From positions 18,501 through 82,500 of the forward strand of contig JACYXH010000407.1 in the NCBI GenBank assembly GCA_026745465.1: a stretch of 64,000 nucleotides of DNA, given 5' to 3'. Of this stretch, positions 13,821 to 63,120 are shown one piece after another. The first letter of the stretch is position 1, and every line of letters starts with the position of its first letter. The position numbers and the translations under genes were made by a program. The notes under the pieces were generated by a model. The model was not told the origin of the DNA. It ran no database searches and saw only the letters and a program-made list of their open reading frames with translations. The DNA is from Lota lota. Taxonomy: Eukaryota > Chordata > Actinopteri > Gadiformes > Lotidae.

Positions 13821-14263
13821 CTAGGACCCTCCTACATCTGGGGACACTCTGTAGAAGGACAGAGTTCCAGCAGGCCGGTCCAGATACACTCCTACTCTGT
13901 TAGAGCCAGCGGGGGGGAGACGTATGAATGTTCTACTACCGGTGTACTGGGCAGAGTAACCACCATCATGACAATAAAGACTCCAGGACTTGTTGTTCCA
14001 TCCAAGCTCACCGTCAACACCCCTTCCTCTCCTTGTGATTCCTCTGTATGTCACTCCTATATCAACACATCCTTCCCACTCTACCTCCCAGTAACAGCGG
14101 CCAGTCAGAGCCTCTCTACACAACACCTGCTGATGGGAGTCAAATCTCTCTGGGTGATCAGGATACGACTGGTCCTCTCTAACCCACGTCACCTTTCTGT
14201 TGTCCTCAGACAGAGAGAGTTGTCTGTGAGCTGTGTTTGGGTCCAGTGTGAGTTCACAGGCAT
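13821..14263 (-). CDS. PRY-SPRY exon of TRIM-A, C-terminally cut
   Basis: Acceptor tcccgtcag, then ACELTLDPNTAHRQLSLSED, WVREDQSYPDHPERFDS, LTGRCYWEVEWEG, GVYLDRPAGTLSFYRVSPD and GGS, then stop. The intact relative at 43721-44274 continues through a further 37 or so residues (ending SVSLCRL), so the last beta-strands of the SPRY domain are lost here. The PRY and most of the SPRY are undamaged, which fits a fairly recent truncation. Confidence 0.75.
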
Positions 14264-14289
14264 CTGACGGGAGAACAAGACATGATTAG

Positions 14290-14748
14290 ACTGCTAAGCC
14301 ACACAGAAATGTCATTTAAATAATGTGGAAGTGATGTATATTAGTATTATTATAAACAGCATTCCACTTATAGTAATAATGATTATATTACATCCATAAT
14401 AATTGAATACTATTATCATGTTTTGACTATAAAAAATACATTGTATAGTTACATGATTATGTGTAATATAATAATGATAGTAATATATATATATATATAT
14501 ATATATAATAATATATTAATACAGACACATTCATAATAATTATTTACAAACGTTATAGCATAACATAAAAGGCATAATAACAACAACGATTACAATAATA
14601 GTAAAAATAGAATACACACACAATAACTATGGTACAATCATTACGTTATTAATAATGATGGTACAATGATTATTATTCAATAGTGTGTAGTAATAATATA
14701 CAACTAATAATTATTATTAATCAATTATACAATTAAATAATACATATT
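14290..14748. other. AT-rich TRIM-A intron with (AT)n
   Basis: Nothing recognisable apart from a short AT microsatellite at 14483-14506 and runs of taataat-type sequence. Confidence 0.6.
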
Positions 14749-15859
14749 GGATTTTACACTTACACTTCTTTACACCTGGTTTCATGTCAGGCAGCTTCTT
14801 CATCTCCATGTTCAGTGTCTCCTCCAGCTGATCCAGGGATCTCCTCAAGGTCCCTACGTATGACGGAGGACGGACCTCCACCGTTGTCCAGTCCCTGGTG
14901 GGTGGAGGACTCTTCAGGGATCTGAAGGTCTGGAGGAAGTGGAGGTGGTCTTCAGTGTGTGAGAGCTGCTTCACCTCTGAGATTCTATTGGTCAGATCTT
15001 CTATTTCCTGCTCCAGCTCTTTGATGATGTCTTCAGCTTCTTTCTCTGTGGATTTCAGTTTCTCTTTAACCGTTTGGTTGAAATCATCCTGCCACTTTTC
15101 CATGCAGTTCATCGGAGCAGTGAAGACTTGCACACCATCAGCTATCTCTCTGTCTGCGTCTTTCTTGCTAATTTCTACTGTGTCTTTGATCTCCTTAATC
15201 TTTAATTTTCTCTCCTGGATCATATGCGGAACTTCAGACTCTATCTTCCCCAGCTGGGCCGTCTTCACTTCATATTCCTTCTTTAGAGGTACAACAGGAT
15301 GGGAGCTGTGGTCACTCTCTGTGCAGAACTGACACACACACACACCTGTTCAGTCTGGCAGAAGAGCTCCAGAAGTCGGTCATGTTTCTTACACATTCTG
15401 TCTTCCAGACGGTCCATAGGCTCGACCAGCCGATGTTTCTTCAGGCCTGCGACTCTCTGATGTGGCTCCAGGTGGGTTTGGCAGTAAGAGGTAAAACACA
15501 CTAGGCAGGACTTCACAGCCTTCAGCTGGGTCCCAGTACAGACGTCACAGGGAACTTCTCTTGGTTCAACACAAGGCTGCTCTTTGACTCGTAAAGAACT
15601 TCTAAACTGGTCAATCATCTCTGATACGAGGATATTGACACGTAGATCAGGTCTAGTGTTGAAAAGCTCATTGCAAACAGGACATTTGTACTGGACTTGG
15701 TCATCCCAGAACTTTGTAATACATGTTCTGCAGAAGGAAGGAAGTAGCAGAGGCCATTCCTAGACACAGATGACAAGGTTTATGTATTGAGCAATTCCAT
15801 TCTTTTTCTAATTCCATAACGGGAAGAGAAGTTCTAAAGTTGTGTTGTTTTACTCACCT

Positions 15860-16743: not shown

Positions 16744-18161
16744 ATGACGAAGAGACGACGTGGACGCGTTAGCCTCTCCGGAGACGAAGAACAAGACGTT
16801 TTAAAGCAGAGAGCCGGGACAGAAACATTCCAAGGTGGGTCCAACACATTGAACCTCTAATCCTCATTGTCCTGTCCGCAGGGCGCCATGTTGTACTGTA
16901 GCGTTAGCCCCACACGGGTCTCCTGCGCTCCGTGTGATCACGTGATGTTGATGCTTAGCGAAACCAACCTTCACGTGCTCTATTGTGTCGCCTCGTCGGA
17001 TTCCACCAGCGCGTGCTCGGTGCTCGGCGTCCTGTTTGGAGCGCGGCGCAGGCACGCGGGGCCGCGCTCTGTACGCTTTGGTTGAACCCGACCAGGCGAG
17101 GCCAACACGGGACTTTAACAAAGTTAGTTTGGTGTTAAAGCATCAGGGCGTACTTCACGAGGAGGACGCATGCGTGAGTAGGGATGGGTCCCGAAACCGG
17201 GAGTTAACCGAGGCCCCTGGGGGTGGCCCCGTGATACTATTACACACCGTAGTATATAAAGTGTCGAAGTATCGATGAGCTCCGACGTACCCGGTGCTGC
17301 AAGCGGTATTTGAGGAACAAAGGAAATAGATTTACTTATTGGTGATCGTTCATCCAGGAAAAAAAGCAGACCTTCCTCCAGAAGAACTGTCCAGATAAGG
17401 CTTCAGGCCTTTTTGAGGCCCAGCTGCATGCAGACCCCAACCCTGTTGCTCTATGCCACTGTCTTTTCTTTTCTCTTGTTTATTGATTTCTTTTTGTTTA
17501 TCACATTTCAATTCTCTCTATATTATAGAGTCTATAAAAGTTATATATTCAAAACCTGTGTACGGTGTTGCTGCTGAAGAAAGATGTCTTGTTCTTAACT
17601 TGTCTTATTCTTAACACATTATTACATGTATACAACATATAACGTATAGTTAAAACTGTAATTTAATTTTTATTTCTAGGAATGGCGTCCAATTCTTCCT
17701 GGTCTGAGGATAACTTTTCATGTCCCATCTGTCTGGATGTGTTCAACAGCCCAGTCACCACACCATGTGGACACAACTTCTGCAGAACCTGTATTACAAC
17801 GTTCTGGGATAGTAGAGTCCATTACAAATGTCCTGTTTGCAACGAGCTTTTCCACACAAGACCTGATGTACAGGTCAATACCTTAATATCAGAGATGGCT
17901 GATCAGTTTAGAAGGTCTGTACGAGTCACAGAGCAGCCTTGTGTTGAACCAGGAGAAGTTCCCTGTGATGTCTGTACTGGGACCCAGCTGAAGGCTGTGA
18001 AGTCCTGCCTAGTGTGTTTTACCTCTTACTGCCAAACCCACCTGGAGCCACATCAGAGAGTCGCAGGCCTGAAGAGACATCGGCTGGTCGAGCCTATGGA
18101 CCATCTGGAAGACAGGATGTGTAAGAAACGGACCACAAGTTCCGTATTATGGATGTTTTAA
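16744..18161 (+). pseudogene. finTRIM-like TRIM, N-terminal part only (TRIM-B)
   Basis: The main exon begins at 17680 after tatttctag. MASNSSWSEDNFSCPICLDV opens a complete C3HC4 RING (CPIC, CGHNFC, CITTF, CPVC), followed by the B-box-like segment PCDVCTGTQLKAVKSCLVCF and HRLVEP. At DRMCKK the sequence jumps to a position about 75 bp further on (ACCACAAGT) and then leaves TRIM homology, giving a stop after TTSSVLWMF. Coiled coil and SPRY are absent. A separate 5' exon (16744-16834, donor gtgggt) has an ATG frame, MTKRRRGRVSLSGDEEQDVL, that joins in phase with the usual TRIM ATG and would add 31 residues. That extension may be chance. A truncated RING-B-box protein could still be made, but relic status is more likely. 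It is divergent from TRIM-A. Confidence 0.7.
17130..17460 (+). other. Possible decayed DNA-transposon sequence in TRIM-B intron
   Basis: gggatgggtcccgaaaccgg and the following GC-rich segment resemble the outer parts of hAT-type elements. No protein or terminal repeat could be confirmed. Confidence 0.25.
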
Positions 18162-38772: not shown

Positions 38773-38882
38773 TGAGTAAAACAACACAACTTTTGAAGGA
38801 AGTTAAAACCTCTCTTCCTGTAATGGAATAAGAACATAAATGGAATTGCTCAATACATAAACCTTGTCGTCTGTGTCTAGGA

Positions 38883-39572
38883 ATGGCCTCTGCTACTTCC
38901 TGGTCTGAAGATAACTTTTCATGTTCCATCTGTCTGGATGTGTTCAACAGCCCAGTTTCCACACCATGTGGACACAACTTCTGCAGAACCTGTATTACAA
39001 AGTTCTGGGATGGTAGAGTCCAGTACAAATGTCCTGTTTGCAACAATCTGTTCCAGACAAGACCTGATTTACAGGTCAATACCTTCATATCAGAGATGGT
39101 TGATCAGTTTAGAAGTTCTGTACGAGTCAAAGAGCAGCCTTGTGTTGAACCAGGAGAAGTTCCCTGTGACGTCTGTACTGGGACCCAGCTGAAGGCTGTG
39201 AAGTCCTGCCTAGTGTGTTTTACCTCTTACTGCCAAACCCACCTGGAGCCACATCAGAGAGTCGCAGGCCTGAAGAAACATCGGCTGGTCGAGCCTATGG
39301 ACCGTCTGGAAGACAGGATGTGTAAGAAACACGACCGACTTCTGGAGCTCTTCTGCCAGACTGAACAGGTGTGTGTGTGTCTGTTCTGCACAGAGACAGA
39401 CCACAAGTCCCATCCTGTTGTACCTCTAAAGGAGGAATATGAAGTGAAGACGGCCCAGCTGGGGAAGATAGAGTCTGAAGTTCAGCAGATGATCCAGGAG
39501 AGAAAACGAAAGATTAAGGAGATCAAAGGACACAGCGGACCGCAAGCAAAGCAGACGCAGACAGAGAGATAG
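38883..39572 (+). CDS. TRIM-C RING and B-box reading frame
   Basis: 230-codon frame: RING at residues 14-57 with all zinc ligands visible, a B-box-like zinc region around residues 95-135 and a second one around 150-190, then the start of the coiled coil before the frameshift tail GHSGPQAKQTQTER. It is the least damaged N-terminal TRIM module in the window and served as the reference for the defects in TRIM-A and TRIM-B. Confidence 0.7.
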   Translation: MASATSWSEDNFSCSICLDVFNSPVSTPCGHNFCRTCITKFWDGRVQYKCPVCNNLFQTRPDLQVNTFISEMVDQFRSSVRVKEQPCVEPGEVPCDVCTGTQLKAVKSCLVCFTSYCQTHLEPHQRVAGLKKHRLVEPMDRLEDRMCKKHDRLLELFCQTEQVCVCLFCTETDHKSHPVVPLKEEYEVKTAQLGKIESEVQQMIQERKRKIKEIKGHSGPQAKQTQTER

Positions 39573-43680: not shown

Positions 43681-43720
43681 GAATGGTTTAGCAGCTAATC
43701 ATGTCTTGCTCTCCCATCAG

Positions 43721-44274
43721 ATGCCTGTGAACTCACACTGGACCCAAACACAGCCTACAGACGACTCTCTCTGTCGGAGGACAACAGAAAGGTGACGTGG
43801 GTTAGAGAGGACCAGTCGTATCCTGATCACCCAGAGAGATTTGACTCCCATCCCCAGGTGTTGTGTAGAGAGGGTCTGACTGGCCGCTGTTACTGGGAGG
43901 TAGAGTGGGAAGGAAATGTTGAGATAGGAGTGACATACAGAGGAATCACAAGGAGAGGAAGGGGTGACGACAGCAGCCTTGGAGGGAACAACAAGTCCTG
44001 GAGTCTTGATTGTTTTGATGATGATTACTCTGCCCGGTACAACGGTAGTAGAACAGACATACGTCTCCCCCCCCCTGGCTCTAACAGAGTAGGAGTGTAT
44101 CTGGACCGGCCTGCTGGCACTCTGTCCTTCTACAGAGTGTCCCCAGATGTAGGAGGGTCCTCAGACACACTGACACACATCCACACCTTCCAGTCCACCT
44201 TCACCCAGGAGGATCTCCTCCCTGGGTTTAGGTTATGGGGGGTTGGTGCCTCAGTGTCTCTGTGTCGGTTGTAG
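43721..44274 (+). CDS. PRY-SPRY exon of TRIM-C, complete
   Basis: Acceptor ctctcccatcag. It encodes ACELTLDPNTAYRRLSLSED, WVREDQSYPDHPERFDSHPQ, CREGLTGRCYWEVEWEG, NKSWSLDCFDDDYSARYNGS, GVYLDRPAGTLSFYRVSPDV and ends GFRLWGVGASVSLCRL, then stop. The PRY motif LDP and the SPRY motifs WEVEWEG and LDRPAGTLSFY are intact. In TRIM proteins this domain binds the target. The exon joins through its usual 2-base phase to the coiled-coil exon. Confidence 0.85.
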
Positions 44275-46439: not shown

Positions 46440-49370
46440 TTTTCTTATGTGTAGAAGTTCACATATATCCACAGCAAGTTTCCAGTCCGATTCTTCCAAA
46501 AAGACAGCAGAGTCAATACTTCACGTTCAATGCTCTATTTGTGGGCTCATGCTGGATCCCCAAAACAACCACCAGAGTCCTTCCATGGTCACAAAAAGCT
46601 CTGCTTGATTCTGTGTGTAAAATCCTGAGTGCTCTCTTATTATTCTTCTCCCATACGTCTCCCACTAAAGTTTTTTAGTCATCACACAACACAGTATCTT
46701 AAAGCACATGACAAGGGCCGGGCTCTCAGTTACCTCCAATCATTACTTGTTATCATGCAAAAAGGTGCAACCCACAGATGGCTATTGGGTTACCGTTATT
46801 AAATTAAGCCAATGACAAACCGCCTACACCCTCTCTAGGCTAATTATTTTGGGGGAGGGGGGGGGATGATGGGCCCCCGACCTGTTTGTCTGAGGGGGAT
46901 CTGTTGTTAGGTTGTGAGACAAGGGAAGGGCCATTTGATGGCAATACCAACCGTGGAGCAATATCTTACAATATCTTTAAGAACAAAAGGGGGTTAGAGA
47001 CAGACGTTTAGCAGAGAGGGGGATGAGAACAGGATGAAGGTAAATATAAATATGAACTCAAACATGGGTTCAGAGAAAGGGATCTGGCGCGGGGGGGGTA
47101 AGGGCAGGGAAAAGGTGTCGTCAACTAACAGTAACCGGGTTCTGGCTGAGAGGGGGAACAGTATGAAGCAAAACCAAATTTAACTGTTTAAAGACACTTT
47201 CCTCAACAGCGTGTAAAGACGGCTGTTTTTCATATATGGGGTCGAAAGGTCAGAAGGAGCCCGCGCCACTCCCCTTCTGAGATCTAACAAAGTGAGAGGG
47301 GTAAGAGGTCATGAGATGGAGCATTATCCGAGGCTCTTTTAGTTACTTCCTGTAGGGCTAGAGGCCCTAAATGTATTATCTTACTTGTCCTTGAGGCCCT
47401 CTTTCATATGAAAGAAACTCCAGGTCTCTTTCTCACTCCAAAGTGTCCTTGACCCCTAGGTCACCTACTAATTACATAACTTCCTGTAGGGCTGGACGTA
47501 CAGTATATTAGGTACTGTTTTAGTAAATCTTGATGCCCTGATTCATATAAAAGAGACCAGACGTCGCTATCTTGATCCCAAATAATTCTGTGCACACACC
47601 ATTAACGGGTTAATGGTGTGTTTGCATCACTTCCTGTAAGTCTAGGACCCTCATGTTGATAATTGTAGTAATCTTTTGAAAGTCTTTTTAGTCTTCCTTT
47701 TACTTTATTGACGTATTAATACTTTAAAGCTGGATTAATTGGTCATGCTTATCTTGTGCAACAACATGTTTTTATAAAATTAACCTTTGGAATGGATGTT
47801 TTGGCGGAAGCAAAGCAGACATAAACTCCCTGTTTTCCCACAAAAACAAGTCGACCTGGTCCGTCCCAAAGAAGAAATATGTCATCCGTGGGTCACTCGA
47901 AAATCTACGTTTTTATTTAAAGAACATCATCAGTTACATAAAATAACATATCATGACTTTCATAGAACACACATAACATAGCAGCCCAGATGACTAATGT
48001 TACAAAATGAAAAATAACGATTCAAACAACATGCAAGCTGCGTGGTTTCAGGGTTAACAGCCTCTATATGAATCACCATGGCAACGATAAAAAACGTTGC
48101 ATTAACTAACAAACTAACATCCTCTACGTTCACTGACTGAAGATGACAATATTAAAATGAATATTCATCACTAGAAATGTTATCAAAGCACATTTTAATG
48201 CCGTAACTATCTTAAAATGTTGCTTTTTCCACTGAGAATATAATGATTGTCATCCATTTTGTTTTGGCAGAACCTTGACATACGTGACGTATTGCTGTTT
48301 CTTCAAACAGTCGATAGGGGGCTAAAACGGTCATATGGGTCATTTTCAAAGACCTTTACAAACAACCTATTCTGACGTTTAGGTTGGAGATCACGTTTCA
48401 TCAATGATATTGTCAAAAAGGTTACGTGGATAGGTTGATGGTCATTGAACAGCTTATCCAAGAGAGCCATGAATCAGAACTGTGTTACTCTGTTAACTAA
48501 AGCTAGCCTGCTAACATTTCTGATAACTACAGCGGGGCAAACTATGTCATCTATTTATACATTCTGATTATTGGTCTTCTGGTCAGTGATATTAGGATGA
48601 CTCTAACAAACAAACATTAAATATGTTACATTTATATGCAAAATAAAGACAAACCAGCACATTCACATCAGGAAAAAGTGAATCGTCAATATCAATACAT
48701 AAATATAACCCCCACTTCAATTCCATTAAAACAACCTACTCAATCAGAGTTTAAGATAAAACCCTACTGTGTGGATATAATTTGTAAATCAGCTAAGCCA
48801 GACAGAGATATAAAAGCCAACAGATACTTGATTTAGTCTGTTGAAACCATCTTGAACTCACACTCTCCTCATTTCAGATCCAAGGATTGCTGCATGACAC
48901 AACTACATCTGCTCATAAAGAAGTTCACTGATTATAAACTAAAGTAAATGTATCCTATATGCTATTCTAGCACAAAATGTGGCCTGTTACAATGCCCATA
49001 ATGACGGAATGCAGAACTAGCTAGCTACCGCAGACACACTCTGAGCTACAGCATTCAGAAACGTCACTACTCAGGTCTTCTTCAGAATCAGCAGCTAAGT
49101 TCCCCAGTGAGGCCAATTAGGTGCAGCGAATTTGATTCTCTCTTGTGGAAGTATAGAAGCGCAACTGGTTCACCCCTTCTGTCGGACCTGCGGAAATATA
49201 AATATAAGAAATGTAATGAAAGTGGCTTAAAAGACCTACAGCTCATTTCATTTATTCACACTCCTAGGTTGAGCGTAGTACATACTAACATACTAAATGA
49301 CATTCTAAACTACATAATAACGAGGATCTTTATTTTCCCAAACAGGAAGCTTGTACCTCTTACTATTTCA
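46440..49370. other. Long non-coding stretch
   Basis: No gene supported. 47340-47470 and 47480-47600 share an acttcctgtagggct start and a catatgaaagaaac/catataaaagagac middle, suggesting an old tandem duplication. 47604-47624 is a short palindrome (accattaacgggttaatggt). Confidence 0.4.
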
Positions 49371-49542: not shown

Positions 49543-50099
49543 CTGTAAAACAGATGAAGTTAAGATGTTCTTCACAAGAGCGTGGCCTCCATGTGGAAGG
49601 TTCCACACTGGACACACCCCCACAGGGGCTGGAATGTTGTGAGCCTTCGTCCCATTGGCTGAAGTCCATCGGGTCACCGGACATCCAAAACCAGGAGCTT
49701 CCTGAAAGTGACCTACCAACATTGAAAGAGATTAAAGAGTTACATAAGTGGAAGGAAGAATAATGTGGCCAAATATTTAGCTTTTGTTATTTTCATGGTA
49801 TTTTTGATAAGACAAAGTGATGGACGGACAGATGATCATAAGGACTGACTTGACTGCCTGATAGACACCAAGGTCTGGCCAGTACCTGCGCAGGCCCACC
49901 CAGAGGTGGCTGGTTAGTGGGAAGGGGGTGCGAGCCACCAGCTCATCAATCATCTCCTGGTCTTCTGGGCCCATGAGGCTCAGCAGGTCCCAGTGAACGT
50001 CTCTGCAGTAGAGCAGGGCGTCTGACCAGCAATGCCGTGTCCCCATCAGAGTGAGGTTCCTCCCCATCTCCTGAATGCTCAGGGAGGGTGCAGCGAGCT
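49543..50099 (-). CDS. C-type lectin-like domain exons of the fusion lectin
   Basis: Exon 50099-49886 starts with two bases that complete the codon left by the F-type exon, giving VYG-E-LAAPSLSIQEM. Conserved features are WSDALLYC, the LWVGLR (WIGL-type) core, W..GDPMDFSQW, CGGVSS, and SCEEHLNFIC with the paired cysteines. There is no EPN or QPD calcium motif, so the domain is probably not a classical calcium-dependent sugar binder. Confidence 0.8.
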
Positions 50100-52479
50100 C
50101 TGTGGTAATAATTGACAGTGTGTTGTTGAGGAAGTTATTACTTTCAGCACTGTAAGTCTAGTAGAGCTATGAATCTTCCTCTATAATCCCATTCAAAATA
50201 GCCTAGCCTATTATTCATATTTATTATGTACCTATAGACTATATATACAGTCTTCTGCATTGTCAATGCCACTATCAGCATGTAGTTGTTAAACGTTCTG
50301 TCCACTAGAGGGCATTCTACCAATTTACATTTATTTAAATATTTTATTAAATATATTTAGGTAAATATTAATATTAGCAACAAAATCACGACTCACGTTG
50401 TTTTACATTTAATGTGATTGTTCGTTTCACACAACAATAAAATAATAAGTCATTGAGTTGAATGGGAGTGAACACATACAAAGTGATTTCCCTTTTGCAA
50501 AAGGCAACATACATTTGATTCACACCAAGGTCTAATTTGTACGGCTCTAGCCAGGGAATAAATATGCTAAACCAATCACATTTCGCTGTCTTTGTCAAAG
50601 TCACCATTGAAACTGTACAAGTTGGAGGAGGTACCAGCCTATTAACGTTTCTCAACACACAGTGTTCTTACTGCATCCAAAGTGGTAAACTACAATTATA
50701 GACCTATAAATATCACTATCTGTTATATGTATTGATCATTCATCTCGATAGCAGTCGGCGCCACAAGCGAATGTTATATTCCACCTCAGTACGTGAATAT
50801 AGGTTGCTTTTGATAACATGAAGGTGTGCCGTTGTATCGCAACAGTTTAGTTTTGGATACCAACTTTCTACAAAAGAGTGACAACTCTATTTTAGTTATT
50901 GAGCAGGGAAACAACCTCAAAAACCATAGTCTCCAAAACATGGATGTATTCAAGAATGCACACCCACTTATTATATAATTATATATTATATATATTATAA
51001 ATTAGAAGTCAGCAATGCTGCTTATGCTCCCTTTTTGATTATTAAGCAAACACAAAGCAACACAAAGCATCAATGGAAAACCTTACAATGCAAAACGGTT
51101 ATTGCACAAAGTGTCTTACAATAACATCATGCATACATTGTAATAATAGGTAGCCCCGAGTGGGAATCAAACCCCTAACCCTGGCAGTGTTAATGCCATG
51201 CTCTACCTGTTGAGCTATAAGGAACAGCAGGATTTGACTTTTGACCAATGATGGTTGACCAACAGTGGTACTGGTACACCCATCCCCCTTTGATGATCAT
51301 GTAATGATGGACTGGGTTCCTACCTCCGTACACTTCGACCTCACACAACGTCAAGTAGCCTCCTTGATCAGAGGACTTGTAGAAGTTGATGAACCTTCCT
51401 TCCATTCCCCAACACTTGACAGTCTGAGTTAAGCAGCTTGGGTCATCGTTGATGATGGCACACCTGAGGAAAAGAGACAGAGAGAGAAGATACAGTAGTC
51501 TGGTGAAGGTATCAGAGACCAGATTCCAGTAGCTGGTGTATGTCCAGGTGTACTTCAGCAGAGCACTGGCTGTGTTCCCTTATTTTCTGGGAATAGAATA
51601 TTCTATGCTATTTAGTGATTTACATTTTTATCCAAAGACACTTAAAAGCAGATTGAGGTCCATAGGGATCAAACCCAGAACGTTTAGGCTGGGAGTCGAA
51701 CAGTATTGAGTGGAAGTAGGGGAGGTGACACCAGTGATTCACCTTGGATTGTCGTTGCCGTTGTTCACCAGAGAATTCCCGATGAGTATTTCCACGCCAT
51801 TGAGCCTCTCCCTAGCAGCATTCCTATTAGTGACCTGGATCTCTGACACCCTGTACACACCAGGCAGCTCCAGCCTCCACCATGGTTTAGCCTGTAACTG
51901 GGTATGGGTGCAGCTGTTGTGCTCCCACTGAGGGTCGGTGTTCCCATCGATGGCGTGTTCAGCAACCCCTTGGTCCAAGATGGTTGAAGACTGAATAGCC
52001 GTGCCGCTCAACGCCAGGTTAATGCGGGATGCAGCTTAATGGAGAAATAAACCACAGCATAGCTTGTCAAGTTGCATTCTAGTGTTCAAAACACATTGAT
52101 ATACTTATAATAATATTTATAACTAGCCATCGGCCCCTAAATGGGGAACATAGAAATACCTGAAAATCCAGGTGACTTCCACAGGAGGACCACAACACCT
52201 GGTGATGAGGAAATACTATTTACTTAATAAAATAAATACGTCAGCTATTTTTTACAAGCATTTATCCTGCAACTATTGTATCTATTAAATATTCTAACTA
52301 TTCGTGGTAGGAATCTTACACACTCCCCAATCCCAAAAACATAGGAGGAGGTCAACTGTCAAAAGTTATGGCAGGTACATTATTATTAATTCAATATATT
52401 GAACTGGATAATGATAAATACTGTAGTGCTGTGTGGAATACCTACCAATGAAACTGCAGATGAGACGACTGGACCCCAT
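49543..52479 (-). CDS. Secreted lectin: signal peptide, F-type lectin domain, C-type lectin domain
   Basis: Six minus-strand exons join in phase: 52479-52446 (MGSSRLICSFIG), 52198-52160 (VVVLLWKSPGFS), 52034-51743 (LALSGTAIQSSTILDQGVAE, HAIDGNTD, HTQLQAKPWWRLEL, LNGVEILIGNS), 51463-51324 (MEGRFINFYKSSDQ, YLTLCEVEVYG), 50099-49886 (NLTLMGTRHCWSDALLYCRD, LLSLMGPED, HLWVGLR) and 49697-49543 (SSWFWMSGDPMDFSQWDEGS, STWRPRSCEEHLNFICFT). Exons 3-4 form a whole F-type lectin (fucolectin) domain; 5-6 form a C-type lectin-like domain. The F-type RxD position reads RLE, so fucose binding needs testing. The last acceptor (gaag) was chosen because it alone keeps frame. The 3' terminal exon is not identified; a tiny one at about 49378 would end the protein. 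Likely a secreted pattern-recognition lectin. Confidence 0.82.
50110..51145. other. Lectin intron, no gene seen
   Basis: AT-rich intron sequence. Nothing recognised except the SINE at its left end (next entry). Confidence 0.5.
51149..51226 (-). mobile_element. tRNA-derived SINE head
   Basis: Minus strand: A box tagctcaacagg, anticodon-like stem tggca/tgcca around ttaacac (AAC), B box ggtttgattcc. The acceptor strands pair only in part, and the sequence resembles the tRNA heads of common fish SINEs (tagctca..gtagagcatggc). It lies in the lectin intron. Confidence 0.65.
51324..52034 (-). CDS. F-type lectin (fucolectin) domain exons
   Basis: Two exons give one complete domain of about 140 residues: SGTAIQSSTILD, AEHAIDGNTDPQWEHNSCTH, WWRLELPGVYRVSEIQVTNR, ERLNGVEILIGNSL, NNGNDNPR, CAIINDDPSCLTQ, GMEGRFINFYKSSD, YLTLCEVEVYG. 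The pattern is that of eel and other fish fucolectins, including the NNGNxNPRCA stretch. Exon 51463-51324 ends in phase 1 and is followed by a SINE-bearing intron. Confidence 0.85.
51612..51690 (-). mobile_element. SINE-like fragment
   Basis: Minus strand: cgttctgggtttgatccct followed by gtgtctttggataaaaatgt. The latter is the typical 3' domain of many fish SINEs. It lies between the two F-type lectin exons. Confidence 0.6.
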
Positions 52480-52500
52480 GGTTCTGGAGAAACAACATGC
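52037..52500 (-). repeat. Segmental duplication, copy 1 (lectin leader region)
   Basis: About 460 bp directly repeated at 54348-54806, covering leader exons 1 and 2 and part of intron 2. The exon sequences are identical or nearly so, while the intron differs by small changes. Confidence 0.85.
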
Positions 52501-52504
52501 TCAG

Positions 52505-53005
52505 ACAATAGATTTTACTAGCTACTAGTTATACAGTCATTCTTACATATGAAATTATACATACAACATTCTATTGAAAGAGGAAACAAATATATAATTT
52601 GAGACGGAGCCATAAGTAATTGACATATTACATTAATCTTAGGAGTCCATAAATGAGGAGTCTACCATTACAGAGTAATACAATAAAATCCTAAAATAGT
52701 TTGTCTCTCTGACTTGAAGATGGTACTCACCGGCAGAGCGATAGGTCCTTCTGCTACGAATGAGGCGTCTGCATCTAGGACCAGCACCTTATACACTTGG
52801 ATTTGCATTAATTCATGCAAAGGCTCTTGTATGCAAATACAAATCCTCAAGCCCTCACTGTGAGAGTGACTATGGGGTTATCGGCAGGAAAGGAAAGGTG
52901 AGAGACATGAGGTGAATTTAACAAAAATTACTTTATTACAACAAACTCCTTTTAGTTTGAGGTACAGGGGAAAACCGGTAAGCAAGGCTAGATGAGTGTT
53001 TAGTT
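52505..53005. other. Lectin 5' flank, no feature seen
   Basis: Probable upstream region of the lectin gene. A direct promoter motif could not be fixed. Confidence 0.35.
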
Positions 53006-53009
53006 AATT

Positions 53010-53990
53010 TAATGTAGAAATGTTACATATTATACCTTTAACCTTTGTCTAAACTAATACCTTTACTTAACCATCTAACCAGCTAAAAAAAGCGATTTAT
53101 GAAACATAATCTATAAAGCAGAAGTGTGAGTAGCTCACTTTGAAAGTCTTTGAAAAACCTAGGGTCCTAGAAATGCTTGTACTTATACACATGGTATCGT
53201 CAGGGCGTATCCCTTTAATGGTACCACTAAAACACATTGTCTAGGGTCGTAGTTTGCCACTGCTGGCACTATTATCATGCTGATAATGTAATAAACAGAC
53301 TTCCCTTTGATTGGTTGGGATGTCTATGAGTTGTTTTAATTACTAGCTAAGGCCTTCTCCTTCTCTGTCTGCCTCTGTACCTTCCTCTACAATTTGATAT
53401 GCAAAAATATTAAATGGGAGGGAAATACATGGTTGTATTTTGTCCTCCATGTATTCATTATAAATTGGTAATAAGTATACATTTTTAATTTAGAATTAGA
53501 ATTGTCCAATTTAATGTAGTTCTAATTAAAACATTTATTTTTCAAAATTTAGTTTTGGTTAACATGTTTGGCTAATTACACTTGTCCTCATGAGTAAAAG
53601 AGATATCAGATGTGTATCTTACTTAAAAATGATTTTGGCCCACTGCTACATACCTTGCCCTGACGTCAGTCTCTACATATCACTTTGCACCGGCTCACAC
53701 TGGCTCTAGGCAGGAAGTACAACCAAATGACAGGATAAAGTATGCAGATAGATAAAATGGAAACATCACTAGCAGCTGCACCCATTGAGCAGGGACATTG
53801 GAAGGACGTTGGCTATTTGCAAACATTATTTGTATAGGCCTTGTGAGACACGTCAACGCTTTACCTGAAAGATCATGGGAAATCTCTCTGTGTGGTATAT
53901 TGTTGTGTGATGAAGGGAAAACAAACAAACAAGTGTCTCCACTCTTTTCTTGTTGTTCCTTTAAATTGAGTTTCCCATGAACAGAGCTAA
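53010..53990 (-). repeat. Inverted-repeat arm
   Basis: 53160-53990 is the reverse complement of about 55840-56690, including ctgacgtcagtctctacata, catttggttg..cttcctgcc and cacattgtctagggt. The two arms are about 0.83 kb and lie 1.85 kb apart. Confidence 0.8.
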
Positions 53991-54463
53991 CCCATTGTCT
54001 GACACCTCGCTGTGTTTGTGTTTTAATGCAGAAATGTTACATATTATACCTGTAAGTTCAACATTTTCAAAACAATACACATATGTACACTCATATACAC
54101 ACATACATACACTCATCACATAACAATATACCACACAGAGAGATTTCCCATGATCCTTCAGGCAACGCGTTGACGTGTCTCACACAAAGTCATTTGCAGC
54201 TTGCGATGGCTCTCTGCATTGGCGGCGTCCGGTGAGGTCACACAGTAAAACTAGCAATGTCCCGGCCCAGTAGTCAGTGAAGGCCTAAACAAATAATGTT
54301 TGCAAATAGCCAACGTCCTTTGAATGTCCCTGATCAATGGATGCTTAATTGAGAAAGAAAGCACAGAGTAGTTTGTCAAGTTGCATTCTATTGTTCAAAA
54401 CACAATACTAATACTAATAATTATAACTAGTCATCGACCCCTAAATGGGGCACATAGAAATAC

Positions 54464-54784
54464 CTGAAAATCCAGGTGACTTCCACAGGAGGACCACAGC
54501 ACCTGGTGATGAGGAAATACTATTTACTTAATAAAATAAATACTTCAGCTATTATTTGCAAGCATTGATCCTGCAACTATTGTATCTATGAAATATTCTA
54601 ACTATTCGTGGTAGGAATCTTACACACGCCCACGATTACAATAGCATAGCAGGAGGTCGACATTCAAAAGTTATGGCAGGTACATTTTTATTAATTCGGT
54701 ATAATGGACTGGATAATGATACATACTGTAGTGCTGTGTGGAATACCTACCAATGAAACTGCAGATGAGACGACTGGACCCCAT
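54464..54784 (-). CDS. Second copy of the lectin leader exons
   Basis: 54784-54751 encodes MGSSRLICSFIG with the same donor, and 54502-54464 encodes the same 39-nt signal-peptide exon (with gct for gtt in one codon at its start). No lectin-domain exon follows before 53.9 kb except those of the main gene. The copy could be a dead duplicate or an alternative first-exon pair splicing to 52034, since the phase is compatible. Confidence 0.6.
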
Positions 54785-54829
54785 GGTTCTGGAGAAACAA
54801 CATGCCCATGTGAAACTCAATTTAAAGGT

Positions 54830-55560
54830 AAAACAAGAAAATAGAGACATCATTTTCCCTTCATCACACAACATTATAACACAAAGATATATTTCCCATG
54901 ATCCTTCAGGCAAAGAGTTGACGTGTCTCACAAGGCCTATACAAATAATGTTTGCAAATAGCCAACGTCCTTCGAATGTCCCTGCTCAATGGGTGCAGCT
55001 GCTAGTGATGTTTCCATTTTATCTGCATACTTTATCCTGTCATTTGGTTGTTCTTCCTGCCTAGAGCCAGTGTGAGCCGATGCAAAGTGATATGTAGAGA
55101 CTGACGTCAGGGCAAGGTACGTAGCAGTGGGCCTGAATCATGTTTAAGTAAGTTACACATCTGATATCTCTTTTACTCATGAGGACAAGTGTAACTAGCC
55201 TAAACATGTTAACCAAAAATAAAGTTTGAAAAATAAAGGTTTTACTTAGAACTACATATAATTGGACAATTCTTATTATAATATCTAAACTTATACTTAT
55301 TACCAATTTATCACGAATACATTGAGGAATAAATAGAACCATGTATATCTTTCCCATTGATTATATTTGCATATCAAATTGCAGAGGAAGGTACAGAGGC
55401 AGACAGAGAAAGACAAGGCCCACGCTAGTAATTAAAACAATTAATTGAGCTTTTGCCTTTAAGACTATCAAGTTGACTTTCTAAATTAAGTTAGATAAAT
55501 TACTTATTTTAGCTGGTTAAATGGTTAGGTGTAGCTATTGGGTTAGACATGGTTAAAGGT
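54830..55560 (+). repeat. Dispersed repeat, direct copy
   Basis: Same orientation as 55840-56690 and shares most of its length (caatgggtgcagctgctagt; ctgacgtcagggcaaggtac). A partial copy of the left part is at 54100-54340. Confidence 0.75.
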
Positions 55561-55839
55561 ATAATATCTAACATTTCAACATTAAATTATGTAAAAACGA
55601 CTAGACCTATGTAACATATTTTGTAGATCTATGAGAATATCTCCTCTGGTTGACAGTGCCTGTCTCTTTATGACACCATTTAGATTGCAGACCGCTCCCG
55701 GCTCCAAAATACACAAAGAGAAACACATGAATCTGAAAAAGAATAAACATTATGAATTATTTTGTATTGTTTTCACTTACAGGTATAATATGTAACATTT
55801 CTGCATTAAAACATAACAATTGTGAGGCGTCATAACAAG

Positions 55840-56690
55840 GGGTTTGCTTTGTTCATGTGAAACTCAATTTAAAGGTACAACAAGGAAACAGAGTGGAGAC
55901 ACTTGTGTGTTCGTTTTCCCTTCATCACATAACAATATAACACACAGAGATATTTCCCATGATCCTTCAGGCAACGCGTTGACGTGTCTCACACAAAGTC
56001 ATTGGCAGCTTGCGATGGCTCTCTGCATTGGCGGCATCCGGTGAGGTCACACAGTAAAACTAGCAATGTCCCGGCCCGGTAGTCAGTGAAGGCCTAAACA
56101 AATAATGTTTGCAAATAGCCAACGTCCTTCGAATGTCCCTGCTCAATGGGTGCAGCTGCTAGTGATGTTTCCATTTTATCTGCATACTTTATCCTGTCAT
56201 TTGGTTGTTCTTCCTGCCTAGAGCCAGTGTGAGCCGATGCAAAGTGATATGTAGAGACTGACGTCAGGGCAAGGTACGTAGCTGTGGGGCCATAATCTAT
56301 TTTACTTATGAAGACAAGTGTAATTAGCCTGAACATGTTAATCAAAACTGAAGTTTGAAAAATAAAGTTTTAATTAGAACTACATTAAATTGGACAATTC
56401 TAATTCTAAATAAAAAATGTATACTTATTACCAATTTATAATGAATACATGTATTTCTCTCCCATTTAATTTCTTTGCATATCAAATTGCAGAGGAAGGT
56501 ACAGAGGCAGACAGAGAAGGACAAGGCCATAGCTAGTAATTAAAACAACTCATTGACATCTCAACAAATCAAAGGGAAGTCTGTTTATTATATTATCAGC
56601 ATGATAATAGTGCCAGCAGTGGCAAACCACCACCCTAGACAATGTGTTTTAGTGGTACCATTAAAGGGATACGACCTGACGAAGCCTAGC
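55840..56690 (+). repeat. Dispersed repeat / inverted-repeat arm
   Basis: The longest copy of the family that also occupies 53010-53990 (inverted) and 54830-55560. Its right end runs straight into the hairpin repeat copy B. Confidence 0.8.
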
Positions 56691-61890: not shown

Positions 61891-61915
61891 ATCTCTCATT
61901 GGATCCAGATCTTAC

Positions 61916-62221
61916 CAACAACAAGCAGCTCTGCGGTGTGATTGGCCGAGCCAGCTCTGTTGGTCGCCATGCAGCAGACAGTGTTCACACCATACTTCAC
62001 ACCTCTGACGAAGAGGAACCCCCTCTCCACCCAGGCCGCAGGCTCTGGTTGGTTGTCCGTGCTGTACCTCTCCAGGGGCCTGCCGTTGTGTAGCCACTCG
62101 ACGGTGGGCTCCGGAGTGCCGCCGGCATCGCAGGAGAATTGGGCCGTGTGGCCCACGGGCAACACCTTGGTAGAGGAGTGGAACTCTGTGATGCTGGGGG
62201 CCTCCTCCTTCGGGGTCATCA
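61916..62221 (-). CDS. Immunoglobulin-like (I-set/C2) domain exon
   Basis: 306-nt exon, acceptor ttctggttcag, donor gtaaga, phase 1-1 as usual for Ig exons. It encodes APSITEFHSSTKVLPVGHTA, QFSCDAGGTPEPTVEWLHNG, RPLERYSTDNQPEPAAWVER, GFLFVRGVKYGVNTVCCMAT and NRAGSANHTAELLVV. The core Cys (FSCDA), Trp (VEWLHNG) and second Cys (CCMATN) are all present, but the usual DxGxYxC is replaced by KYGVNTVCC. It would be one domain of a multi-Ig membrane or muscle-type protein. WLHNG and ANxT recall Trk-type Ig domains, but this is too weak to name. No neighbouring exon found. Confidence 0.7.
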
Positions 62222-62239
62222 CTGAACCAGAAGAAACCA

Positions 62240-63120
62240 GGACGAGATGAGTGAACGTTGTACAACACGTATCTAGAGATGCACCATCAAAACACTCCCT
62301 TCACTCTCTCTCATACCTCTCCACTAGAGGGCGACCCAGAAGATTCAGACCCAGTTTTCTCGCCTGCCTTTTCATACATGATTGAATATCACAGCAGTAT
62401 CTACAAAGATTTCCCAGGGAGGGGGAGACACTCCAGCTCAGAGATAAACGAGTCGGGGGCGGAGCTTGCGGAGGAGAACACAAATATTGGTATTGCATAT
62501 CTTTTAACGCCATTATAGCCTGTCCTACGTGATGGTTTTCAGAATATCTTATGTGTTTTATTAATATTGTATTTACATTACATGCACATTGTATTCTGAG
62601 TTATTTTACAATAGGATACATATTTTATTATAGCCTAATCTGCGCCTGTTATATTCTTTATTAATGTTCACATGCAAATGCCTCTTTATTTTGTAATATT
62701 TCAGCTTGATAAGGAAAGAATGCAGTTAGTTGATTGGTGCTTTAATCCAAATGAATTACTGTTCTCATGTGCTGAAAAAGATGGCAACAATTTAGACAAA
62801 TTATATTATTGAATAACAGCTTGAAATTAATAATGAATTATACTACTACTACTTTCGCCTCATGGGGCACCATTTTATAATAGTGGGGGGAAGGTCATTT
62901 TCTCTAGTTTACAAACGGCGGTCTGAGTAGCGGTCGGGTGCAGTTACAGCAAGATGAGGATTCAGGTGAGAAAATACCTAAACCCTGCATCACTAGTAGA
63001 CACAGACCCTGATCAGAGGTACACACATCCAACCACCTTTCCATTCATAAAGAGTATTTATACTGTATCTACTGCACAGAGAATAGAAAGGAGGAACCAT
63101 TCTCAACTCATGAACACAAA
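62240..63120. other. No supported gene
   Basis: The ORF at 62258-62518 has no recognised family. The rest is AT-rich and non-coding. Confidence 0.35.

Follow-up and report, generated by a model that had tools for sequence, protein, structure and literature searches.

A predicted Lota lota protein with an F-type lectin domain followed by a C-type lectin-like domain belongs to a known teleost family whose sugar pocket is variable in gadids

Is a secreted protein that joins an F-type lectin domain (FTLD) to a C-type lectin-like domain (CTLD) a rarity among fishes, and what might such a protein do? The question is raised by a minus-strand gene in the window, i.e., the whole stretch of 64,000 nucleotides from contig JACYXH010000407.1 of Lota lota that was analyzed.

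The gene runs from 52479 to 49117 in seven exons of 34, 39, 292, 140, 214, 170 and 71 bases and encodes an open 319-residue protein. All of its introns are GT-AG and all exon phases agree, with exon-end phases of 1, 1, 2, 1, 2 and 1 for exons 1 to 6. Exon 1 (52446..52479, minus strand, as are all seven) carries the ATG start codon and the first part of the signal peptide and ends in phase 1 at the donor GTAGGT; exon 2 (52160..52198), with AG/GT borders and phase 1-1, supplies the remainder of the signal peptide, whose hydrophobic peak covers residues 5-26. The first two thirds of the FTLD are encoded by exon 3 (51743..52034), in which the domain match, the translation and the alignment place the basic triad H68, R95 and R101 and the cation motif AIDGN, and exon 4 (51324..51463), along which orthologues align throughout, encodes the end of the domain. 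The linker and the first half of the CTLD, including the conserved CWSDALLYCR with Cys192, lie in exon 5 (49886..50099), and phase-matched translation and homologue alignment assign the second half to exon 6 (49543..49712). A preliminary description of the locus had reported these six exons, and all were recovered at the same positions with AG acceptors, GT donors and agreeing phases; the join it had proposed, VYG-E-LAAPSLSIQEM, is exact, the intron splitting the Glu codon. It did not contain exon 7 (49117..49187), which is entered in phase 1 through the acceptor TTCCGCAG and encodes the C-terminal tail and the stop codon. Reading through beyond exon 6 leads to a stop after 12 residues, whereas exon 7 yields a tail matching those of the cod relatives.

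The exon-5 donor at 49886 was chosen because the resulting junction matches that of the homologues: cutting at GCAG/GTACTGG restores their LRR-S junction. A donor at 49855 was ruled out, as stops arise in exon 6, and one at 49850 gives an open model of 331 residues but with 12 residues that are missing from homologues. Pfam, structure-library and first homologue searches used this 331-residue model with its 12 extra residues. Among the relatives listed, the closest is Gadus morhua P0002, which has the same length (319 residues), 100% query cover and 83% identity end to end; the other best matches listed, all from Gadidae as well, were Arctogadus and Boreogadus (81% each) and Gadus chalcogrammus (77%). 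As full-length homologues exist, mostly as automatic gene models, a chance origin of the fusion is excluded.

The protein consists of a signal peptide, one FTLD and one CTLD, in that order. A simple hydropathy scan, rather than a dedicated predictor, showed that residues 1-24 resemble a signal peptide and revealed no second hydrophobic or membrane segment, no 19-residue stretch beyond residue 30 having a mean hydropathy above 0.96. With the 331-residue model, Pfam matches to PF22633 (E 1.4e-16), PF00754 (1.8e-8) and the Lectin_C profile PF00059 (3.4e-7; 31.4 bits against a cut-off of 22.6) were all above cut-offs, and no CCP domain was matched. In sequence, the FTLD of the same model matched the fucolectin of striped bass (3cqo, E 2.5e-72) and the agglutinin of eel (1k12, E 1.9e-26). 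A Foldseek search with the predicted model of Gadus morhua P0002 likewise returned 3cqo (E 2.6e-16, 43% identity) and 1k12. The CTLD matched those of Reg/lithostathine and of mannose receptors, both by sequence and by Foldseek with the P0002 model. That AlphaFold model has a mean pLDDT of 77.6 and a pTM of 0.61; it is high in the FTLD and weak at residues 1-25, 240-256 (within the CTLD) and 300-319. Thus, gene model, Pfam matches, hydropathy and full-length homologues bear out the earlier reading that the locus encodes a single secreted fish protein in which a CTLD comes after a complete FTLD, and gene model, domains, homology and shared architecture are established.

The same architecture was found in many other fishes. 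The homologue set combined the best 120 of 218 matches, a further 46, and the best 120 of 1693, giving 223 homologues in all; as matches are listed best-first, this sample is biased to close relatives. Using purpose-built profiles of the two domains, we assigned 32 of the 223 homologues among the matches listed to the FTLD-CTLD class, and in another 23 a full CTLD follows at least two FTLD matches, not all of which are complete (FFFC 8, fFFC 6, FFC 4, FFfC 2, fFC 2 and fFfC 1). The remainder are FTLD-only, CTLD-only or partial models. Seventeen of the 32 FTLD-CTLD homologues are 313-323 residues long, within an overall range of 242-504 residues that includes some partial or odd gene models. 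Carriers belong to Gadus, Arctogadus, Boreogadus, Merluccius, Thunnus, Poecilia, Trematomus, Lates, Dicentrarchus, Zoarces, Epinephelus, Notolabrus, Betta, Siganus, Acanthopagrus, Morone, Oreochromis, Takifugu and Centroberyx, which we take to be acanthomorphs, and to one salmonid, Salvelinus fontinalis; one homologue, P0076, carries no species name. Among the matches listed, no CTLD was present in those named as cypriniform or characiform. Taken together with the credit that a 2017 review gives to Bishnoi et al. for CTLD-FTLD proteins in teleosts (PMC5712786), these homologue classes indicate that the architecture is already known and common in teleosts, and that the window gene is an unremarkable representative of a fish lectin family already described. 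The view that such a design would be unusual in fish is therefore not upheld: looking among fish proteins for an F-type lectin followed by Lectin_C yields many, including versions with two and three FTLDs.

Comparison with known systems places the gene more closely. It shares domain order and the CTLD signature CWSDALxYCR, common to FTLD-CTLD proteins, with Gadus morhua LOC115546508 and its percomorph relatives, the class credited to Bishnoi et al. in the review (PMC5712786); within this class, the window gene is a gadiform representative that differs in its pocket sequence. The multi-FTLD-CTLD proteins of the FFFC type (Morone, Oreochromis, Takifugu, Centroberyx and Dicentrarchus) have a homologous CTLD with the same signature but differ by having up to three FTLDs and often a proline-rich linker before the CTLD, and they lie on the opposite side of the CTLD tree. 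MsaFBP32, the striped-bass fucolectin of PDB 3cqo, shares the FTLD fold but has two FTLDs and no CTLD. Drosophila Furrowed/CG9095 also combines an FTLD and a CTLD in one protein; it differs by CCP domains and a predicted membrane segment, neither of which was detected in the window protein, and its CTLD is unlikely to bind sugar (both points from PMC5712786).

The CTLD tree was built from 58 hand-picked sequences and rooted at the midpoint, and 18 of its 55 inner branches are drawn open. The midpoint separates 22 sequences from 36 (94/82). The smaller side comprises 19 multi-FTLD proteins, a Centropristis FTLD-CTLD protein and two CTLD-only models. The window gene falls in a gadiform clade of 18 sequences (100/99), three of which are CTLD-only Muraenolepis models, and this clade joins, at 94/82, a percomorph FTLD-CTLD clade of 18 sequences (95/88), two of them CTLD-only. 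This topology is consistent with descent of the gadiform and percomorph clades from a common ancestor that had one FTLD-CTLD gene.

We then consider the sugar site of the FTLD. The His-Arg-Arg triad is kept, H68, R95 and R101 aligning with H52, R79 and R86 of eel agglutinin, and AIDGN conforms to the cation motif (a small hydrophobic pair, DG and a small polar residue). The fucose motif HX24RXDX4(R/K), defined like the cation motif in PMC5712786, is departed from in two ways: Ala replaces the acidic residue after the first Arg, and one residue fewer precedes the last Arg. These departures weaken the case for canonical fucose binding, though not the case for the fold. The loop also lacks the contiguous cysteines of eel agglutinin, as does the C-terminal FTLD of the striped-bass protein, each FTLD of which is reported to bind fucose in the crystal (PMC5712786).

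EPN/QPD and WND are the calcium/sugar motifs of C-type lectin domains, and none of EPN, QPD and WND occurs in the window protein. Among 55 fusion CTLDs, including that of the window, EPN or QPD was found in none and WND in one (P0218); a W.D..C remnant is present in 25 of the 55, the window gene having WRPRSC in its place. A broader pattern that also admits EPS and QPN matched 8 of the 55, and six gadids have VEPSTW or LEPSTW, away from the usual motif site. Sugar binding by the CTLD is thus unproven, and while the preliminary description was right to see two lectin-type domains, its wording of a two-lectin receptor may overstate the case. Eight cysteines of the protein fit the usual two disulfides per domain, those of the CTLD lying in the usual places (200/294 and 270/286; pairings inferred). 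Of 67 fusion proteins with a WSDA motif, the window protein among them, 62 retain the cysteine that precedes it, Cys192 in exon 5. As Cys192 lacks a standard CTLD partner, it is a possible candidate for disulfide dimerization; Cys132 and Cys318 also have no obvious partner, so that Cys192 is not unique in this respect.

The two domains have diverged unequally in gadids. We compared 14 gadid FTLD-CTLD proteins, i.e., the window gene and P0002-P0008, P0010, P0011, P0014, P0017, P0018 and P0033. On average, pairs of these proteins differ by 0.311 in the FTLD and by 0.240 in the CTLD plus tail, and the FTLD is the less alike domain in all 55 pairs of 11 of these proteins (3 of the 14 being left out); percomorph proteins show similar divergence in the two domains (0.376 versus 0.363). 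Within the FTLD of the 14 gadids, 12 pocket-loop columns, a set partly of our own choice, differ by 0.676 versus 0.276 in the rest of the domain, a value matched by none of 20,000 random column sets, although neither paralogues or alleles from one species nor automatic gene models count as independent data, and surface loops vary anyway. A stricter set was formed from the 11 ligand-contact residues named in PMC5712786, of which 8 or 9 passed a gap filter. Its value was reached by 3 of 20,000 random sets for 10 full-length gadid proteins, by 6 for the 6 closest and by none when the window gene was left out. With 13 percomorph proteins, 1010 of 20,000 random sets reached it, and the wider pocket set gave 0.0113 with 15 percomorph proteins; a tendency to pocket variability is therefore present there too, more weakly. 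The most variable single gadid columns include pocket sites and others, and the columns with the greatest excess over other FTLDs are likewise a mixture of pocket and non-pocket sites.

Loss of the triad follows a broader pattern. The HRR/K triad is intact in 4 of the 14 domains from gadid FTLD-CTLD proteins and in 3 of the 16 from gadid tandem-FTLD proteins. The corresponding counts are 11 of 13 for percomorph FTLD-CTLD proteins (14 were entered, one with a domain of insufficient length), 21 of 31 for multi-FTLD-CTLD proteins and 166 of 291 for the other FTLDs. As the gadid tandem FTLDs lose the triad too, the low proportion in gadids is not peculiar to the fusion; judging from these sequences, triad loss is common in FTLDs at large. 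Its frequent loss in gadid relatives means that the FTLD ligand may not be fucose.

On balance, we consider it probable that this is an apparently functional gadiform member of an ancient teleost family of secreted FTLD-CTLD proteins serving soluble glycan recognition, with the FTLD as the binding domain and another role for the CTLD. The signal peptide would send the protein to plasma or mucus, and the FTLD would bind terminal fucose-like sugars via H68, R95 and R101. The CTLD would not use the classical calcium site for sugar binding and might instead be a protein-contact or oligomerizing module, perhaps through the conserved Cys192, and the resulting multivalent protein might agglutinate or opsonize microbes or organize mucus glycans.

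Among the alternatives, a bispecific protein, whose FTLD binds a fucosylated glycan and whose CTLD binds another glycan or a lipid, survives best, and we consider it unlikely. CTLDs can bind ligands without EPN or WND motifs, and the greater conservation of the CTLD than of the FTLD in gadids argues that its function has been kept; the near-complete lack of EPN/QPD and WND from the fusion CTLDs speaks against it.

Less probable still is that the locus is a degenerating duplicate with a drifting fucose site. Its surroundings and the variability of pocket residues among gadids could be read in this way. The region 52034-52503, with exons 1-2 and upstream DNA, recurs on the minus strand at 54343-54808 with 91% identity, and the duplication ends exactly at the exon 3 acceptor. 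The exon 1 copy (54751..54784, minus strand) is identical over its 34 bases, the exon 2 copy lies at 54464..54502 (minus strand), and the encoded peptide has a single changed residue; between the exon 2 copy and 52220 there is no lectin match. With the copy so well preserved, either a remnant of a tandem gene copy or alternative first exons or an alternative start is conceivable. Around the copy, at 52996-56682, inverted and direct repeats are clustered; they are 82-97% identical and probably transposable elements. Against decay, the seven exons are open in frame, the disulfide cysteines are present, and the CTLD is 75-91% identical to those of 10 gadid relatives. A further reading has two genes or isoforms, one transcript with the FTLD alone that stops within intron 4 and an independent one with the CTLD, misjoined by splice-site reading. 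It was rejected as very improbable, since many species have full-length FTLD-CTLD models (mostly automatic) whose CTLDs begin at the same point after comparable linkers, even though exon 4 stays open for another 44 residues beyond its donor and some database models, gadid ones among them, end after the FTLD or are CTLD-only (classes F 4, C 13, Fc 7 and fC 7 of 224).

Beyond these copies, tblastn with 120 homologue queries (E 1e-4) found no further F-type or C-type lectin exons in the window; two other matches, both to P0086, fall in TRIM-type frames. The window also holds pieces of TRIM-type genes (RING, B-box, TRIM coiled coil and PRY-SPRY) at 13821-15759 (minus), 17667-18161 (plus), 38832-39572 (plus) and 43699-44274 (plus), and an immunoglobulin I-set domain exon of another gene at 61896-62300 (minus).

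Returning to the favored reading of a secreted glycan-recognition protein, the gadid data allow one tentative extension. To our knowledge, MHC class II is absent in codfishes more widely, and in such a lineage the codfish FTLD-CTLD family might form a diversified recognition repertoire, with a conserved CTLD "handle" and an FTLD pocket driven to change beyond fucose; we regard this as possible but on balance doubtful. Among the literature titles listed, none dealt with gadid FTLD-CTLD diversity, and "fucolectin" does not occur in the main text of PMC7588623 or PMC7759675. The idea of a two-lectin fusion as a fish rarity is corrected, as the fusion is widespread among teleosts. The gadid sequences also show a testable oddity: alignment positions whose counterparts in relatives touch fucose vary, on average, much more than the remainder of the FTLD, the CTLD being steadier. 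If positive selection were confirmed at the DNA level, codfish would own a pocket-diversified set of soluble lectins, which would be notable given that the Atlantic cod lacks MHC class II (PMC7588623).
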